Shown: positions 2,026-61,335 of the stretch, one piece after another | How the letters are laid out: each line of letters starts with the position of its first letter | Numbering within the stretch: position 1 is the first letter of the stretch | Assembly (NCBI RefSeq): GCF_040267705.1 | Contig: NZ_CP158374.1 | Span: 1,736,001 to 1,800,000, forward strand | From: Agromyces sp. G08B096 | GTDB taxonomy: Bacteria > Actinomycetota > Actinomycetes > Actinomycetales > Microbacteriaceae | DNA length: 64,000 nucleotides | Reading direction: 5' to 3' | The notes under the pieces: generated by a model | The model's input: only the letters and a program-made list of their open reading frames with translations | Databases searched by the model: none | What the model was told of the DNA's origin: nothing | Program-made: the position numbers and the translations under genes

Positions 2026-3564
2026 TCAGTCGTACTTCGCCTCCGCCTGCCACCCGTCGGCGTCGCGCACGAGCAGCCAGGCGACGCCGTCGGCGTCGAT
2101 GATCTGGAACCGGTGCACGCGGCGGGCCCGATCGGCGTCCCACCAGTGCTCGACGACCGGCCAGGGCCCCGCCCAGGCCTGCACGGGCCGCGGTCGCCCG
2201 CCGGCGAGGGCGAACCCGGCGGGTGCCGCGGAGACGGTGCCGCGTTCGTCGATCGCGACCGCCGTGCCGGCGTCGTCGACGAGGAGCACGGCGGGCCGGT
2301 CGCGGAACACGCTCGCCGGCGCGAGCGCGGGCAGGCTGCCCGGCCACGGCGCCTCGACCCGGTCGGGTGCCCGGTCGCCCCACGGCACGAGCACCTGCCG
2401 GTCGGCGAGGAGGCGCCCGCCGCCGACGGCGGGGGTGACGACCGCGTCGTGGCCGAGCATGCTCTGCACGCGGGTGAGGCCGTGGTGCACGCGTTCGTCG
2501 GGGCCGCCGCCCCAGAGGCCCTCCTCGTGGTTGCCGGTGGAGTCGAGCCGTTCGGGCACCACCCGTACGCGCACCACCGGCGAGGCGAGACCCGCATCGG
2601 CCGTGCCGGTGCCCTGCAGCTGCCACCGGATCCGGTCGACCACGTCGGCGACGGTGAACCAGCGGGGGTGCAGCCAGGCCCGGCTGGAGTGTCCGCCCCG
2701 TTCGTCGTCGAGTTCGACGCGGATCGCGGTGCAGACCAGGCGGACGTTCCGCATGCGGTCGATGAACTCCTCCGCGCGGACGCGGAACGCGAACGCGAGC
2801 TGGTCGACGCGGTCGATCGGCGGCTCGAACTCCTGCTCGACCGCGAACTCGGGCGGCGGTGTGCGCGGAGCCACCCGGGTGGCCTCGCGCCCGGAGGCGA
2901 GGTCGTGCGCGAACGCGCCGGCCGCCCCGAACCGGCGGCGGACGTCGGCCTCCGGCAGCGCCGCGAACTCGCCGAGGGTGGCGACGCCGAGCCGCTTCAA
3001 CAGGGTCGCCGTGCGCGGATCGACCACCAGCCGCACCGGCAGCGGCGCGAGGAATGCGGCGGATGCGCCGTCGGGCACGATGCCGATGGGGGAGCCCTTG
3101 GTGCCCCGTGCGGCCTGCTCGGCGGCGAACGGGCCGTCGGCGATGCCCACCCGGGCCTGCGGGACTCCGGCCGCCGCGGCGGTCTCGAGCAGCGCCGCGG
3201 CGGCCGCCTGCTCGCCGCCGTAGTACCGCACGGGACCCCGGGCGCGCATGGCGAGCGTGCCCGGCCGAATGAGCTGCAGCCCGGGCACCGCCTCTTCGAT
3301 GCGGCGCACCACGGGTTCGAACGCGCGCGCGTCGAGGGCGGCGTCGTAGGCCAGCACGACGAGGGCCGGGCAGCGCAGCTGCGCCTCCCGGAGCCTCAGC
3401 CCTCGTGCGACGCCGTCGCGGCGGGCCGCGGCGGAACAGGCGAAGACGAGACCGCCGTCGGTGAGCGCTACGGGGGCGTCGTCCTCGAGGCCGTGTTCGC
3501 GCATGGCGGCGAACACGGGCCAGTCGGGACACCACAGCACGATGGTGCGGGTCGGCGCGGTCAT
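2026..3564 (-). CDS. imuB: Y-family polymerase-like mutasome adaptor ImuB
   Basis: This 512-residue UmuC/DinB-like protein is the adaptor that, in mycobacteria, links DnaE2 and ImuA' to the beta clamp. The N-terminus reads IVLWCPDWPVFAA where active Y-family enzymes have a D-x-D-x-FF motif, and no S-x-DE motif is seen at the second acidic site. It therefore appears catalytically dead, as known for ImuB. A sequence HEEGLWG at about residue 350 resembles the QLPLWG-type clamp-binding motif. The ATG at 3564 overlaps the imuA' stop by four bases (ATGA), which implies translational coupling. Regulation is presumably by the LexA box upstream of imuA'. Confidence 0.9.
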   Translation of the reverse strand: MTAPTRTIVLWCPDWPVFAAMREHGLEDDAPVALTDGGLVFACSAAARRDGVARGLRLREAQLRCPALVVLAYDAALDARAFEPVVRRIEEAVPGLQLIRPGTLAMRARGPVRYYGGEQAAAAALLETAAAAGVPQARVGIADGPFAAEQAARGTKGSPIGIVPDGASAAFLAPLPVRLVVDPRTATLLKRLGVATLGEFAALPEADVRRRFGAAGAFAHDLASGREATRVAPRTPPPEFAVEQEFEPPIDRVDQLAFAFRVRAEEFIDRMRNVRLVCTAIRVELDDERGGHSSRAWLHPRWFTVADVVDRIRWQLQGTGTADAGLASPVVRVRVVPERLDSTGNHEEGLWGGGPDERVHHGLTRVQSMLGHDAVVTPAVGGGRLLADRQVLVPWGDRAPDRVEAPWPGSLPALAPASVFRDRPAVLLVDDAGTAVAIDERGTVSAAPAGFALAGGRPRPVQAWAGPWPVVEHWWDADRARRVHRFQIIDADGVAWLLVRDADGWQAEAKYD

Positions 3565-55145: not shown

Positions 55146-57230
55146 TCAGGCGTCGATGCGGTCCCGGCTGAGCCCGTTGGCGCTGTCGATGATGAACTCC
55201 TTGCGCGGCGCGACCTCGTTGCCCATGAGGAGTTCGAACACGCGGCCCGCCTGCTCGGCGTCGGCCACGCCGACCCGCCTGAGCGTGCGGTGCTTCGGGT
55301 CCATCGTCGTCGTCGCGAGCTGATCGGCGTCCATCTCGCCGAGGCCCTTGTAGCGCTGGATCGGATCCTGGTACTTGCGGCCGCGACGCTTCAGGTCGGC
55401 CAGCACACCCGTGAGCTCGGCCTCGGAGTAGGTGTAGATGACGTCGTTCGGCTTCGAGCCCGGATTCAAGGCGACGACGCGGTGCAGCGGCGGCACCGCG
55501 GCGAACACCCGTCCCTCCTCGATCATCGGGCGCATGTAGCGGAAGAACAGCGTCAGCAGGAGCGTGCGGATGTGCGCCCCGTCGACGTCGGCGTCGCTCA
55601 TGATGATGACCTTGCCGTACCGGGCCTGCGAGATGTCGAACGATCGGCCGGAGCCCGCACCGATGGTCTGGATGATCGCGGCGCACTCGGCGTTGCCCAG
55701 CATGTCGGCGATCGAGGCCTTCTGCACGTTGAGGATCTTGCCGCGGATCGGCAGGAGCGCCTGGTGCTCGCTGTCGCGTGCGAGCTTCGCGGTGCCGAGC
55801 GCGGAATCGCCCTCGACGATGAACAGCTCGCTGTGCGCGACATCCGTCGACCGGCAGTCGGCGAGCTTCGCCGGGAGCGACGACGACTCGAGCGCGTTCT
55901 TGCGGCGCTGGGTCTCTTTGTGCGTGCGCGCGGAGATACGCGCCTTCATCTCGGCGACGACCTTGTCGAGCACGAGGGCGGTCTGCGCCTTGTCGTCGCG
56001 CTTCGTCGAGGCGAAGCGTTCGCCGAGGGCCTTCGTCACCACCGACGAGACGATCGACCTGACGGCGGGCGTGCCGAGCACCTCCTTCGTCTGACCCTCG
56101 AACTGCGGCTCGGCGAGGCGCACCGTCAGCACGACCGTGAGGCCGGCGAGCACGTCATCCTTCTCGAGTTTGTCGGTGCCGACCCTCAGCCGGCGAGCGT
56201 TCTGCTCGACCTGCGCGCGCAGGAACTTCAGCAGTCCCTGCTCGAATCCGGCCTGATGCGTGCCGCCCTTCGGCGTCGCGATGATGTTCACGAAGCTGCG
56301 GAGGATCGTGTCGTAGCCCGTGCCCCAGCGCAGTGCGATGTCGACGTGGCACTGCCGTTCGACCTCGGTCGGCACCATCGCGCCCGTGTCGCTCAGCACC
56401 GGCACCGTCTCGGTGAACCGGCCGTCGCCGGTCAGCCGCCATACGTCGGTGACCGGGCCGTCGACGGCGAGGTGCTCGACGAACTCGGAGATGCCGCCGT
56501 CGAAGGCGAACCGGTGCTCCTCGGGTTCCTCACCGCGCTCGTCGAGGACCGTGATGCCGAGGCCCGGCACGAGGAACGCCGTCTGACGGGCGCGGCCGAG
56601 CAGCTCCTCGACCTGGAACGTCGCACCCTTCGTGAAGATCTGCGGGTCGGCCCAGTAGCGGATGCGCGTGCCGGTCACGCCCTTCGCGACCTTGCCGACG
56701 ACGCGCAGCTCGCTGGCCTCTTCGAACGGCGTGAACGTCGATGCGGGGCTCGGCTCCGCAGCGGACGGGTCGGCGAACCGCCCGGGCTCGCCGCGATGGA
56801 ACGACATCGCCCACGTCTTGCCGCCGCGGTCGACCTCGACGTCGAGGCGCTCGGACAGGGCGTTCACGACGGACGCGCCGACACCGTGCAGACCGCCCGA
56901 GGCGGCATACGAACCCGAGCCGAACTTGCCGCCGGCGTGCAGCTTGGTGAACACGACCTCGACGCCGCTGAGCCCCGTCTTCGGCTCGATGTCGACCGGG
57001 ATGCCTCGGGCGTGGTCGCGCACCTCGACGCTGCCGTCACGGTGCAGGATGACCTCGATCTCAGTGCCGTGGCCGCCGAGCGCCTCGTCGACGGAGTTGT
57101 CGATGATCTCCCACAGGCAGTGCATCAGGCCGCGGGAGTCCGTCGACCCGATGTACATGCCGGGGCGCTTGCGGACGGCCTCGAGGCCCTCGAGCACGGA
57201 GAGATGACGCGCGGAATAGTCGGAGCTCAC
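55146..57230 (-). CDS. parE: DNA topoisomerase IV subunit B (ParE-type)
   Basis: This 694-residue ATPase subunit pairs with ParC. The GHKL ATP site shows EIIDNSVDEAL and GLHGVGASVVNAL. The TOPRIM domain has LFIVEGDSALGTAK and IIMSDADVDGAHIRTLLLT. The C-terminus has QRYKGLGEMDADQL and GNEVAPRKEFI. The GTG at 57230 lies 8 nt after TAGGCT on the minus strand and is probably leaderless. The 55057-55145 gap to parC is extremely GC-rich with nested inverted repeats but no gene. Confidence 0.92.
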   Translation of the reverse strand: MSSDYSARHLSVLEGLEAVRKRPGMYIGSTDSRGLMHCLWEIIDNSVDEALGGHGTEIEVILHRDGSVEVRDHARGIPVDIEPKTGLSGVEVVFTKLHAGGKFGSGSYAASGGLHGVGASVVNALSERLDVEVDRGGKTWAMSFHRGEPGRFADPSAAEPSPASTFTPFEEASELRVVGKVAKGVTGTRIRYWADPQIFTKGATFQVEELLGRARQTAFLVPGLGITVLDERGEEPEEHRFAFDGGISEFVEHLAVDGPVTDVWRLTGDGRFTETVPVLSDTGAMVPTEVERQCHVDIALRWGTGYDTILRSFVNIIATPKGGTHQAGFEQGLLKFLRAQVEQNARRLRVGTDKLEKDDVLAGLTVVLTVRLAEPQFEGQTKEVLGTPAVRSIVSSVVTKALGERFASTKRDDKAQTALVLDKVVAEMKARISARTHKETQRRKNALESSSLPAKLADCRSTDVAHSELFIVEGDSALGTAKLARDSEHQALLPIRGKILNVQKASIADMLGNAECAAIIQTIGAGSGRSFDISQARYGKVIIMSDADVDGAHIRTLLLTLFFRYMRPMIEEGRVFAAVPPLHRVVALNPGSKPNDVIYTYSEAELTGVLADLKRRGRKYQDPIQRYKGLGEMDADQLATTTMDPKHRTLRRVGVADAEQAGRVFELLMGNEVAPRKEFIIDSANGLSRDRIDA

Positions 57231-57374
57231 GTCGCCCAAGCCTACTGACCGCGGACGACACCACCGGTCAGGCACTACGCGCTGAGCGAAATGCCCGTCC
57301 CACGGGACGGAGCGCAGCATCAGGCGTGTTTACATGGATGAACCGAACGGAACGTGAGCGATGGAGGAGGAGCC

Positions 57375-57608
57375 ATGACGCAGTACACCGAGACGACCGG
57401 TGCGGTCGAAGCCGAGGCCCCGTACGAGCTCACGGCGCTCGACCGGTGCGACGCCTGCGGCGCGCAGGCCTACATCCGGGTGACGGTCGCGAACGGCGAG
57501 CTGCTGTTCTGCGCCCACCACGGTCGCAAGCACCAGGAGAAGCTCTCCGAGATCGCGCACAGCTGGCACGACGAGTCGAGCCGTCTGCTCGTCGACTCGC
57601 GCGACTGA
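57375..57608 (+). CDS. small zinc-finger-like protein (DUF7455-type)
   Basis: This 77-residue protein has CDACGAQAYIRVTV and, later, LFCAHHGRKHQEKL, which together can bind one zinc through Cys and His. The form matches a short actinobacterial family of unknown function found beside parE/sigA (DUF7455 in my recollection). ATG at 57375 follows GGAGGAGG. A strong terminator follows the stop. Confidence 0.8.
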   Translation: MTQYTETTGAVEAEAPYELTALDRCDACGAQAYIRVTVANGELLFCAHHGRKHQEKLSEIAHSWHDESSRLLVDSRD

Positions 57609-57690: not shown

Positions 57691-58431
57691 TCAGGCGGGC
57701 AGCGCCACTCCGGCGGCCTTCAGCTGAGCGGCGCGTGCCTCCGCGGCGAATGCGTCGACGACGGCGGTCTGCTCCCCCGGCTCGTACGCGACGCCCGCTC
57801 GCGTCGCCATCTCCGTGAGCATGGCGTCGGCGAGAGCGGGGTTCTTCGCGAGGACGGGACCGTGCAGGTGCGTGCCGAGCACCCAGCCCATGACGACGCC
57901 CTCCTGGCTGGAACCGCGCCCGTTGCCTTCGCCGGCGACGATGCGCCCGAGCGGCGACGCCTCGGCCTGCACGTACTCCCGCGCGTGATTCTCGAACCCG
58001 ACGAGGTGGCCGAAGCGTGGCGAACGCACCACGAGGTCGCCGGTGATCCGTCCGCCCTCCGCGCGCGGCACCGCGCGACCGGGGAGCACGGCCAGTCCCT
58101 CGACGATGCCGCCGTCGGCGGTTTCGATGCCCCAGCTCAGCAGCTCCCAGCCGGTTCCGATGCTCAGGATCGGAACGCCCTCCGTGCCCCACCGGCGCAG
58201 CTCGTCGTGCATCGTCAGCAGCCGCGCGCGAGCCGGCTCGAGCGTCGAGTCGCTACCCGAGCCGACGATCACGGCGTCGACGTGCGCGGGGAGGTCGGCG
58301 GCGTCCTCGACCGCGACGATACGCGCCTCGTGGCCCGCCCAGCGGAGCCGCTGCGCGAGCACGGCCGCGTTCTCGGCGTCGCCGTTCGTGTTCAGCAGAG
58401 ACGGCACCAGGGCCGCGATCGTGAAGGTCAT
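57691..58431 (-). CDS. gatD: GatD-like protein without the glutaminase cysteine
   Basis: This 246-residue protein aligns without gaps to lipid II glutaminyl amidase GatD around the active site. Known GatD has the nucleophile in GLTICGGYQFLG (Cys94 in S. aureus); this one reads ILSIGTGWELLS, putting Gly92 there (codon GGA). No Cys occurs anywhere in the protein. Other GatD features remain: GSGSDSTLE, RITGDLVVRSPRFGHLVGFENHA and GTHLHGPVLAKN with the conserved His190. It therefore cannot make ammonia from glutamine in the usual way. Its ATG overlaps the murT stop by four bases. See the linked finding on group B peptidoglycan. Confidence 0.88.
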   Translation of the reverse strand: MTFTIAALVPSLLNTNGDAENAAVLAQRLRWAGHEARIVAVEDAADLPAHVDAVIVGSGSDSTLEPARARLLTMHDELRRWGTEGVPILSIGTGWELLSWGIETADGGIVEGLAVLPGRAVPRAEGGRITGDLVVRSPRFGHLVGFENHAREYVQAEASPLGRIVAGEGNGRGSSQEGVVMGWVLGTHLHGPVLAKNPALADAMLTEMATRAGVAYEPGEQTAVVDAFAAEARAAQLKAAGVALPA

Positions 58432-59684
58432 TCGGTTCCCGTGAGTCCGAGATGGGCGCGCGTGCGGCGCATGGCGTCGGCGGAGAAGACGATCGTCTTC
58501 ACCCCGGAGGTGGGCGCAGGCGCCGCGAGGAAGTCGTCGACGGCGCGCCCGAGGTCGGGTTCGATCCGGTCGACCGCGACCCCGTCGTAGGCGACCATCA
58601 GCGCGGCCTCGGCCGCCTTCGAGCCGCTCACGATCGCGACGCGCCCGAGCGAAGAGGCATCCGTCGGCCAGAAGTACGACGGATCGCGCACATCGGAGCC
58701 GATCGCGAACAGGATCTGCTCAGTGCCCGCTTCGATGCCGTCGACGTTCAGCTGGTAGCTCGCGGGGTTCTGGACGAGCACGAACTCGACCTCCTGGCCT
58801 CGCACGACCGTGCGCTCGCCGCGCCCGAACACCGCCGGGATCGCGCTCAGCGCCTGCACCGCGACTTGGCGGTCGAACCGCTCCCCGAGGGCCGCTTTCG
58901 CGGTCGCGTACGCCGCCGCTGCGTCGACCGCGTAGTGCGTGCCCCGTGCGGGCAGTCCGACGACGACGGATGCCTCGCCGTCGAGCAGCTCCGCACGACG
59001 ACCGTCGATCGCCTCGACCACCACGCCGTCGCGCGATGCGAGGCGGGTTCCCGAGGTCTCGGTGTGCCCGAGGCCGCGGGGAGCCTGCTCGAGCACCGCC
59101 TGCGAGACGCCGAACCGATGGACGGCGACGCCCGGCCCGACACGCCCGGCGAGGCGCTCGAGGCTCGCGTCGTCGGCGTTCACCACGATCGCCTCCTGCG
59201 CGCGCGCGGCGATGCGCGCCAGCATGCCGACGACCATCTCGGGGTCGTGGAAGCGGTCGATCTGATCGACCATGACGTTCGTCAGCGTGACCATGCGGGC
59301 GTCGACGCCCTGCATGACGAGCGCGCCGTGGCCCTCATCCATCTCGAGCACGGCGACGTCGCCAGGCACGCGGCCGCGCCAGTCGGCCTGTTCGAGCAGC
59401 GCCGAGGTGAGGCCCTGGCTGATGTTGGCGGTCGAAGGGTTCGTGAAGACCTCGACGCCGTGGGCCCGGAGGATCGCCACGAGCATCTTCGTCGTCGTCG
59501 ACTTGCCGCTCGATCCGGAGACCACGAGGAGCCCCTGCGGGAACCCGGAGAGCGTGCGCTTCAGGTATCCCGGCGCGATGCGGTTGACCACGAGGCCGGG
59601 CACAGCCGATCCCCCGCCCGGCTTCCTGAGCCGGGCGAGGAACCGCACGAACCGGCCGACGAGGATCGCCGGCGCGTATCGCAC
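58428..59684 (-). CDS. murT: MurT-like Mur ligase lacking the zinc ribbon
   Basis: This 418-residue Mur-ligase-family protein with a C-terminal DUF1727 domain pairs with GatD. Conserved parts are VVSGSSGKSTTTKML (P-loop, residues 56-66; usual form GTNGKTT), TANISQGLTSALL, VLEMDEGHG, TNVMVDQIDRFHD and VNADDAS. The middle of normal MurT has a four-Cys zinc ribbon; here that region (about residues 185-225) is short, and the whole protein has no Cys. The usual LNDNxADGxD motif is reduced to AIGSDVRDPSYFW, while NPAS is kept. GTG at 59684 lies 7 bp after the rpoD stop, so it may be co-transcribed with rpoD. Confidence 0.88.
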   Translation of the reverse strand: MRYAPAILVGRFVRFLARLRKPGGGSAVPGLVVNRIAPGYLKRTLSGFPQGLLVVSGSSGKSTTTKMLVAILRAHGVEVFTNPSTANISQGLTSALLEQADWRGRVPGDVAVLEMDEGHGALVMQGVDARMVTLTNVMVDQIDRFHDPEMVVGMLARIAARAQEAIVVNADDASLERLAGRVGPGVAVHRFGVSQAVLEQAPRGLGHTETSGTRLASRDGVVVEAIDGRRAELLDGEASVVVGLPARGTHYAVDAAAAYATAKAALGERFDRQVAVQALSAIPAVFGRGERTVVRGQEVEFVLVQNPASYQLNVDGIEAGTEQILFAIGSDVRDPSYFWPTDASSLGRVAIVSGSKAAEAALMVAYDGVAVDRIEPDLGRAVDDFLAAPAPTSGVKTIVFSADAMRRTRAHLGLTGTE

Positions 59685-59691
59685 CTGCGGC

Positions 59692-61041
59692 CTACTCGAG
59701 GTAGTCGCGGAGCGACTGCGAGCGGGACGGGTGGCGCAGCTTCGCCATCGTCTTCGACTCGATCTGGCGGATGCGCTCGCGGGTCACACCGAAGGTGTCG
59801 CCGATCTGGTCGAGCGTCTTCGGCATGCCGTCGCCCAGGCCGAACCGCATGCGGATGACCCCTGCCTCGCGCTCGCTCAGCGAGTCGAGCAGCGACTCGA
59901 GCTGCTTCTGCAGCATCGTGAAGCCGACCGCGTCGGCCGGCACGACCGCCTCGGTGTCCTCGATGAGGTCGCCGAACTCGCTGTCGCCGTCTTCGCCGAG
60001 CGGAGTGTGCAGCGAGATCGGCTCGCGGCCGTACTTCTGCACCTCGATGACCTTCTCAGGGGTCATGTCGAGTTCCTTCGACAGCTCCTCGGGCGTGGGC
60101 TCCCGACCGAGGTCCTGCAGCATCTGGCGCTGCACGCGGGCGAGCTTGTTGATGACCTCGACCATGTGCACCGGGATGCGGATGGTCCGGGCCTGGTCGG
60201 CCATCGCCCGGGTGATCGCCTGACGGATCCACCACGTCGCATACGTCGAGAACTTGAAGCCCTTGGTGTAGTCGAACTTCTCGACCGCACGGATGAGGCC
60301 CAGGTTGCCCTCCTGGATCAGGTCGAGGAACTGCATGCCTCGACCCGTGTAGCGCTTGGCGAGCGAGACCACGAGGCGCAGGTTCGCGCCGAGCAGGTGG
60401 CTCTTGGCGCGCTGGCCGTCCTTCGCGACCCACTGCAGCTCACGGCCGAGCTGCGTGCGCTTCTCGGCGTCGCTCATGTGCGACAGCTTCTCCTCGGCGA
60501 ACAGGCCCGCCTCGATGCGCATCGCGAGCTCGACCTCTTCGGCCGCGTTCAGCAGCGCGACCTTGCCGATCTGCTTCAGGTAGTCCTTGACGGGGTCGGC
60601 CGTGGCACCGGTGATCTGCGCCGAGTAGACCGGGACCTCGTCCTCGTCGTCGGCGGCGCGCAGGACGAGGGCGCCCGTCGGGTGCGGCTCGACCGGGATC
60701 GGTGCGGCGTCCTCCGTCTCCTCCTCGTCGTCGGCGGTCTCACCTTCGACCTCGGCGGTCTCCTCGACGACGACCTCGGCCTCGAGATCGGCCGGGTCGA
60801 TCTCCTCGTCGTCCTCGGGCTCGTCGCCGCCCTTGGCGGCGCCCTTCGCCTTCGTCGCGGTCTTCGCGGTGGCGGTGCGAGGGGTCTTCGACGCCGACGC
60901 GGCCTTGGGCCCGCCCGACTTCGTCGCGGCCTTCGCCTTCGGCGCCGCCTTGGAGGCGGCCGGCTTGCTCGCCGGCTTCGCCGCGGTCTTCGCGGTCGCC
61001 TCGGCGTCGGCCTTGGCTGCCGTCGCGGACTTGGTTGCCAT
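59692..61041 (-). CDS. rpoD: principal RNA polymerase sigma factor (SigA/HrdB)
   Basis: This 449-residue group 1 sigma-70 factor has an N-terminal Lys/Ala-rich stretch (about residues 1-70), an acidic block ([16 protein letters not shown]), then region 1.2 [16 protein letters not shown]. Regions 2.3-2.4 read [22 protein letters not shown] and region 4.2 reads [22 protein letters not shown]. The extended N-terminus is typical of actinobacterial principal sigma factors. ATG at 61041 has GGAGAGG upstream. RbpA, its partner, is encoded at 18095. Confidence 0.96.
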
Positions 61042-61335
61042 GAATTCGACCTCTCCTCGCCGTCGCACGCTCGTCGCCGTGCGGCGCGGCTGCTGCTCCG
61101 GGTCCGGTGTTTTCGGACACTATGAGGACCCATGTCAAGTCCGCCGTGAATCGCGATCGTGATCGCGCGGATCGGACGAGAACGGGTCCTGTAGACAATT
61201 ATACCAGCGCACACCCCCTGAGACGCGCGGGCGCACGGCTCCGGCGCGTGCGTCTTCGGCGCTTCCCCTACCTCAACACGTGCAGCCGCCGAGGCATTCC
61301 CGGCCAGGGAGGCCGGTCAGGGAGGCCGGTCAGGG
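61042..61335. promoter_or_regulatory. rpoD upstream region with a perfect TATAAT box
   Basis: This 294-bp non-coding region contains TATAAT on the minus strand (61203-61198), 157 bp before the rpoD start. No good -35 is seen 16-18 bp upstream. A minus-strand TTGACA lies downstream of it near 61137, with no well-spaced -10. The leader could therefore be long (about 150 nt). The left part holds no other recognisable element. Confidence 0.5.
61307..61332. repeat. 13-bp tandem direct repeat
   Basis: GGGAGGCCGGTCA occurs twice in tandem (61307-61319, 61320-61332), ending just before the stop codon of the convergent-side PAC2 gene. Confidence 0.9.

Follow-up and report, generated by a model that had tools for sequence, protein, structure and literature searches.

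What does a Mur ligase do with a glutaminase-like partner that has lost its catalytic cysteine? The question is raised by two overlapping genes, relatives of murT and gatD, which lie in a 64,000-nucleotide stretch of the chromosome of Agromyces sp. G08B096 (NZ_CP158374.1, positions 1,736,001 to 1,800,000; this whole stretch is referred to as the window) and whose products contain no Cys at all (0 residues in GatD and 0 in MurT). Judging from the sequences, we lean towards the answer that this former amidotransferase pair now ligates the D-diamino acid of the murein cross-bridge to the α-carboxyl of D-Glu. The original prediction had proposed that the pair lost its glutaminase and was recruited to ligate the group B bridge; the loss of Cys, the grouping of the Cys-less pairs in one clade, their restriction to one family and their place between sigA and parE speak for it, but the pair is not found in all group B genomes, so that it is not the one group B enzyme and the proposal is supported in part. 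The pair and its key residues are located as follows:

57691..58431, minus strand: gatD-like gene, 246 aa, whose product has a glutaminase fold but no catalytic Cys (sequence and AlphaFold model)
58428..59684, minus strand: murT-like ligase, 418 aa (sequence and AlphaFold model)
58156..58158, minus strand: GGA codon for Gly92, opposite Cys94 of S. aureus GatD (alignment)
57862..57864, minus strand: codon for His190, opposite His189 of S. aureus GatD (alignment)
59499..59516, minus strand: MurT P-loop GSSGKS, canonically GTNGKT (alignment)
58668..58685, minus strand: MurT DPSYFW, whose Asp334 corresponds to Asp349 of S. aureus MurT (alignment)

A glutaminase fold without its nucleophile

The GatD-like subunit is recognised as GATase_3 (61 bits) and aligns with S. 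aureus GatD (5n9m, E-value 2.2e-27); this alignment is free of gaps around the active site, where it places Gly92 opposite the catalytic Cys94, exactly as first proposed. The other two members of the proposed triad, His189 of GatD and Asp349 of MurT, are kept in the window as His190 and Asp334. The AlphaFold model of the subunit (predicted local distance difference test, pLDDT, 96.2) finds 6gs2_A (template modelling score, TM, 0.82) and 5n9m_A (TM 0.89) as its best PDB matches, and the TM range of 0.82-0.90 to S. aureus GatD chains assigns this predicted model to the class I glutaminase fold. Some of the loci that we collected come from the same genome twice, and the 124 Cys-less loci comprise 119 different GatDs, in which the nucleophile site is occupied by Gly (92), Ala (19), Ser (4), Asn (3) or Thr (1). 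Since the C94S and C94G variants of S. aureus GatD were inactive in vitro (PMC6113224), glutaminase activity is not expected in any of them. The position of His189 is His in 77 of the 119, and Gln, Gly, Lys, Asn, Tyr, Arg, Ser or Ala in the other 42; by genus, it is His in most users of 2,4-diaminobutyrate (Dab), Gly in Clavibacter, Gln in Curtobacterium and Lys in Frigoribacterium. This residue may track the bridge amino acid, which we offer as a lead only, because the genera share ancestry.

A Mur ligase core with altered loops

The MurT-like protein is recognised as Mur_ligase_M and, close to the threshold, as MurT_C, and it also matches known MurT structures (S. pneumoniae MurT, E-value 3e-19). 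In its AlphaFold model (pLDDT 91.0), the PDB matches are MurT (TM 0.50 for S. aureus and 0.64 for S. pyogenes) and other Mur ligases. An alignment of 36 MurT rows (31 Cys-less and 5 Cys-type) shows G57, G60, K61, T63, E114, D116 and E117 of the ATP/Mg site to be invariant, and Asp334 likewise; the invariant P-loop and acidic residues, together with the fold match, identify the ATP site of a Mur ligase. The equivalent of Asp334 in S. aureus MurT faces GatD (PMC6113224). The P-loop reads GSSGKS in place of GTNGKT, the loop that corresponds to ADGRDxSW of Cys-type MurT is 3 residues shorter, and the four-Cys ribbon is absent; alignment thus bears out all three departures that had been noted in the window. 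Throughout the rows read, the amine-side loops of MurT, near the old contact with GatD, differ from those of the Cys form. The pair falls well short of the NCBIfam equivalog cut-offs (at best 118 against 450, and 77 against 800).

The absence of the ribbon had been taken as a companion of the Cys loss and hence as a sign of repurposing. This part of the prediction is ruled out, since the 24 Cys-type MurTs from other families of the order have only 1 to 4 Cys each in total. The zinc ribbon itself is apparently confined to a subset of bacteria (PMC6113224).

One clade, one family

In a quick LG+G4 tree of 125 MurT rows, for which long-branch warnings were raised (among others for L045, L047, L052 and L020) and from which the diverged rows that we call class IV (L049-L051, L313, L314) and the fragment L309 were omitted, all 81 Cys-less rows form one clade (support by the Shimodaira-Hasegawa-like approximate likelihood ratio test, SH-aLRT, 99), and all 44 Cys-His rows fall outside it. 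Two main forms make up the clade. In the window, Agromyces, Cryobacterium, Glaciibacter, Rathayibacter, Naasia and Leifsonia Root4, the P-loop is GSSGKS or GSAGKS, accompanied by NPSTANI and in most rows by DVRDPSYFW; the other form is marked by GSNGKS, NPSGxN or similar, and GTPDPSW or similar (Clavibacter, other Leifsonia, Herbiconiux, Mycetocola, Curtobacterium, Frigoribacterium and Labedella).

The gatD and murT frames of the window are both intact and overlap by 4 bp. For nine Agromyces loci, the ratio of nonsynonymous to synonymous substitution rates (dN/dS, Nei-Gojobori) has a median over 36 pairs of 0.21 for MurT and 0.32 for GatD, with pairwise maxima of 0.29 and 0.47, and both proteins are under purifying selection. 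Reading of the frames, Cys counts and dN/dS well below 1 together bear out the description of the pair as intact, overlapping, Cys-free and conserved. The genome of the window (complete, 3,593,141 bp, one contig) contains no second MurT, as judged with the MurT_C profile and by MurT homology at an E-value of 1e-8, so the separate intact MurT/GatD that would have spoken against the proposal was not found there. By its 16S gene the host belongs to Agromyces, with 98.0% identity to A. cavernae and 97.3% to A. terreus and A. ramosus. Three further GATase_3 matches in this genome are short stretches, two of them above the cut-off.

Within the samples searched, and as far as the genomes are named or grouped, Cys-less pairs were seen only in Microbacteriaceae, bacteria of soils and plants whose wall cross-link (group B) is unusual. 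Sampling was confined to the order of the window, and murein type is known for few species. Within the family at least 118 stretches were found and 50 + 49 of their genomes searched; in the order-wide search, in which 59 genomes of other families matched, the best 30 matches were read as loci, and the 24 of these that come from other families are all Cys-His. At the family border these samples would fit the proposal that Cys loss tracks group B murein, but within the family 47 of 130 genomes have no Cys-less pair.

Several records deserve a remark. L236, titled Planococcus sp. APC 4015, is Cys-less and has a 16S of the Microbacterium kind, so that its title seems wrong; L197, a metagenome-assembled genome (MAG) titled Desulfovibrio, bears a Microbacteriaceae 16S pattern, and either title or binning seems wrong. 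In L045 (G013), a reduced genome which we take to be Tropheryma whipplei, a Cys-less GatD of the Ser type and MurT stand with a racemase-family gene at the sigA-parE site. G009 has an Ala-His pair adjoining sigA.

Genomic context

The neighbours of the pair in the window are:

59692..61068, minus strand: sigA-type sigma-70 gene, upstream neighbour of murT (Pfam Sigma70 regions 1.2-4)
57354..57608, plus strand: DUF7455 gene, a frequent edge of the island
55146..57320, minus strand: gyrB/parE-type topoisomerase subunit gene, here parE, a frequent edge of the island (Pfam DNA_gyraseB)

The start of murT lies 7 bp past the stop codon of sigA. With flanks of about 1.5 kb or more read at each locus, sigA is within the stretch in 122 of 124 Cys-less loci versus 0 of 52 Cys-type loci, none of which has DUF7455 or parE there either; the exceptions are L021, with DUF7455 and parE instead, and L453, the second Cys-less pair of G111, with neither.

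We then consider a panel of 130 family genomes from 78 genera (at least 90% complete; genes missing from drafts may reflect assembly gaps). In 78 the sole pair is Cys-less and lies by sigA or parE; three (G050, G060 and G113) have such a pair plus a Cys pair elsewhere, one has two Cys-less pairs, and one (G035) has a MurT at a contig end whose GatD was not read. This gives 83 of 130 genomes with the Cys-less pair (82 with GatD read, one cut by the contig end). The remainder comprises 12 genomes with a Cys pair only, 11 with a class IV pair, 18 that lack a pair but hold a close CofE-like gene, and six with none of these ligases. A Cys-type pair besides the Cys-less one also occurs in Leifsonia aquatica (L267/L286) and Leifsonia TF02-11 (L289/L315). 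Class IV pairs (L049-L051 and L460-L467, 11 genomes) have His, Gly or Asn instead of Cys at the aligned GatD site and a MurT that mostly retains a Cys-rich stretch; sigA is in the stretch in 9 of the 11, and an ATP-grasp gene in 4.

Most genomes without a pair carry, directly behind sigA, a protein of PF01996 (F420_ligase), mostly with a PF14397 ATP-grasp gene. CofE is a carboxylate-amine ligase; the three CofE-like proteins tested lie far below the NCBIfam CofE equivalog cut-offs. The gene was found in 22 of 30 sigA loci; 24 of the 30 come from genomes without any pair, and for these 24 the count is likewise 22. Of the eight loci that lack it, those of Klugiella, Amnibacterium and two Leucobacter run on from sigA to DUF7455 and parE, those of Galbitalea and Schumannella have a class IV pair, and those of two Agrococcus (L406 and L407) have other genes before parE. 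One of the Agrococcus genes resembles, by eye, a solute-binding protein; no bridge enzyme was identified here for these species, which contain Dab. In the panel, 18 of the 24 genomes without any pair hold the CofE-like gene, behind sigA in 17 of the 17 read. Where a Cys-less or class IV pair is present (94 genomes), a close CofE-like gene never occurs, as against 18 of the remaining 36 (Fisher p 2e-12, with genomes treated as independent and kinship ignored). Matches to CofE in five Cys-less loci were discarded, as the query ran across the end of sigA and they vanish with a trimmed query; a separate search of these genomes likewise gave no match. Both states, pair and CofE-like gene, occur within five genera (g7, g9, g54, g71 and Agromyces). 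In Agromyces, MurT was found in 40 of 41 genomes (in one it is split over two contigs, and in two a stop lies inside the matched stretch); the sole genome without it, G261, has the CofE-like and ATP-grasp genes (L388 1644-3680) between sigA and parE.

Twenty longer sigA-parE stretches (17 of the 18 panel genomes, G261, M. lacticum and M. elymi) contain the CofE-like gene in 20 cases, the ATP-grasp gene in 18, an alanine-racemase-family gene in 11, DUF7455 in 18 and parE in 20. In a further 17 named stretches, the CofE-like gene is present 15 times, accompanied by ATP-grasp in 14 and a racemase in 10. A racemase-family gene also stands in the stretch of 26 of 124 Cys-less pairs (L045 included) versus 0 of 52 Cys pairs; six of these 26 were run against Pfam, and all six are Ala_racemase. 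In L020 (G016; 2262-3269), an ATP-grasp gene lies beside the Cys-less pair, a mix of both cassettes. Racemase presence was discarded as a predictor of D-ornithine (D-Orn) versus L-Lys in Microbacterium, since M. enclense and M. gubbeenense, for which L-Lys is reported, have the gene.

The locus itself carries more weight as evidence: in relatives, the interval between sigA and parE also houses CofE-like, ATP-grasp and racemase genes. We tentatively suggest, at somewhat less than even chances, that this interval is an exchange site for group B cross-bridge enzymes in Microbacteriaceae, filled by the Cys-less pair acting on D-Glu with a D-diamino acid, by the class IV pair, or by the CofE-like protein with ATP-grasp and/or racemase building another, perhaps glycine-started, bridge.

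Murein type and gene content

Group B murein was recognised decades ago; Schleifer and Kandler reportedly treated it in 1972. It also occurs in the Firmicutes Erysipelothrix, Eubacterium and Acetobacterium, and D-Glu in the Micrococcus type is substituted with Gly. Leifsonia, Rathayibacter, Herbiconiux and Glaciibacter have Dab and Curtobacterium has D-Orn in the bridge, which in Microbacterium has glycine as first residue.

Published types, determined in strains or species other than those whose gene content we read, include B2γ with Dab for Agromyces aureus (PMC5217419), B2γ with Dab for Cryobacterium, B2β with D-Lys for Frigoribacterium and B2β with D-Orn for Homoserinimonas (PMC7033078), and a B-type with Dab for Leucobacter chironomi (PMC4511665); in Clavibacter, D-Dab links D-Glu to D-Ala (PMC9603630). 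The Cys-less pair is present in Clavibacter (2/2 genomes), Cryobacterium (4/4), Frigoribacterium (2/3), Curtobacterium (7/7) and Agromyces (7/7 named genomes, one with the pair in two pieces, and the window). No pair was found in the genomes searched of Salinibacterium (2 genomes), Microcella, Gulosibacter and Klugiella, and only two of 35 named Microbacterium genomes have it (L302, strain RU33B, and L303, strain 18062). Glycine, one of the amines that had been listed for assay, is thus an improbable substrate, the pair being absent from 33 of 35 genomes of a genus whose bridge starts with glycine, and a D-diamino acid is favoured instead. A universal group B enzyme is ruled out by the 47 of 130 family genomes without a Cys-less pair; Leucobacter and most Microbacterium lack it.

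Proposed function and its alternatives

Sequence, conservation and gene context suggest that substrate, reaction and the role of GatD are probably as follows. The pair would descend from the MurT/GatD lipid II amidotransferase and have lost ammonia production. MurT, as its Mur ligase core is retained, would still bind ATP and activate the α-carboxyl of D-Glu in the lipid-linked precursor, and the acyl phosphate would be attacked by the amino group of a free diamino acid, not by ammonia. The predicted product, D-Glu-(D-diamino acid), would begin the 2-to-4 cross-bridge that characterises type B2 murein, the diamino acid in Agromyces being presumably D-2,4-diaminobutyrate (D-Dab). The GatD-like partner would close off the active site on its amine side, and it may do so as a scaffold or by binding the amino acid.

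A number of observations weigh against this proposal. The absences mentioned above (47 of 130 genomes without the Cys-less pair, and six without any pair, class IV or close CofE-like gene) indicate that these ligases are probably dispensable for making group B murein. All five Leucobacter have the Cys form only, although L. chironomi is B-type with Dab, and in L. chironomi, whose only pair is Cys-type, nothing lies between sigA and DUF7455-parE. The sole MAG named Homoserinimonas has the CofE-like gene and no pair, although the genus is B2β. Two class IV genomes (G049 and G112) carry a distant CofE-like gene (E-value 2e-44) by the pair. The associations ignore phylogeny except in the within-genus cases, and the side prediction that the racemase would occur only in D-Orn Microbacterium failed.

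The remaining objections concern the amine, and they are also what an ammonia-using enzyme would predict. S. aureus MurT takes ammonia at pH 8.5 but still requires GatD (PMC6085368), so such a form is possible; the window keeps two members of the old triad, His190 and Asp334; and mass spectrometry revealed some D-Glu amidation in Clavibacter (PMC9603630), whose two genomes searched hold only the Cys-less pair. We nevertheless consider it unlikely that the pair still amidates D-Glu with free ammonia, the GatD-like subunit serving as a scaffold that completes the amine site, since an amide at this carboxyl would be expected to block the B-type bridge, Cys loss is confined to a group B family within our samples, the MurT loops near the former GatD contact are changed throughout the rows read, and the pair and an unrelated ligase gene exclude each other (0/94 vs 18/36).

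Acyl-phosphate chemistry would serve equally for some other amine, for example glycine, or for a non-bridge modification of the D-Glu α-carboxyl, and the variety at GatD residue 189 would fit that. It is quite improbable, however, in view of the lack of the pair in Microbacterium with its glycine-started bridge and its presence in Dab and D-Lys genera. Least probable is that the pair is a decaying remnant or a structural pseudoenzyme that no longer ligates anything: the nucleophile is gone, GatD evolves faster than MurT and many relatives lack the pair, but MurT persists in nearly all Agromyces, dN/dS is well below 1 and the catalytic MurT residues are invariant.

Comparison with known systems

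We found no description of an enzyme that loads the D-Glu α-carboxyl with the bridge amino acid in the literature, of which part was surveyed, and a search that joined MurT, GatD and Microbacteriaceae returned nothing. The present work supplies a concrete candidate for this bridge-loading step and a second, non-homologous candidate cassette, and the natural swaps within single genera make the question directly testable; the murein of Microbacterium RU33B and 18062, the only named Microbacterium with the Cys-less pair, would be an informative comparison. If the bridge-ligase reading is true, a glutamine amidotransferase has turned into an amino acid ligase through loss of its glutaminase, and an enzyme can be named for a cross-link step of Microbacteriaceae walls for which the literature found, as far as surveyed, names none.

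The closest known system is the MurT/GatD lipid II isoglutaminyl synthase (structures from S. aureus 6gs2/7q8e, S. pneumoniae 6fqb, S. pyogenes 9sq9), which shares with the window overlapping genes for a Mur ligase and a class I glutaminase fold, the conserved ATP site and the Asp349 position; the window pair departs from it in the missing Cys94, the GSSGKS P-loop, the shortened ADGRD loop, the sub-cut-off NCBIfam scores and the place behind sigA. Cys-type actinobacterial MurT/GatD (44 tree rows, e.g. Leucobacter and the second copy of Leifsonia aquatica) are of the same protein family and gene order, but have an intact Cys-His, mostly GTNGKT and ADGRDxSW, and do not lie by sigA, DUF7455 or parE. 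MurE and MurF, which have the Mur ligase fold in common with the window MurT, also join an amine to a stem-peptide carboxyl at the expense of ATP, but they act on UDP precursors and other carboxyls and have no GatD partner. Homologues of CofE (F420-0:L-glutamate ligase, PF01996) and ATPgrasp_ST (PF14397), in turn, are not homologous to MurT/GatD, yet occupy the chromosomal site of the pair where the pair is missing.

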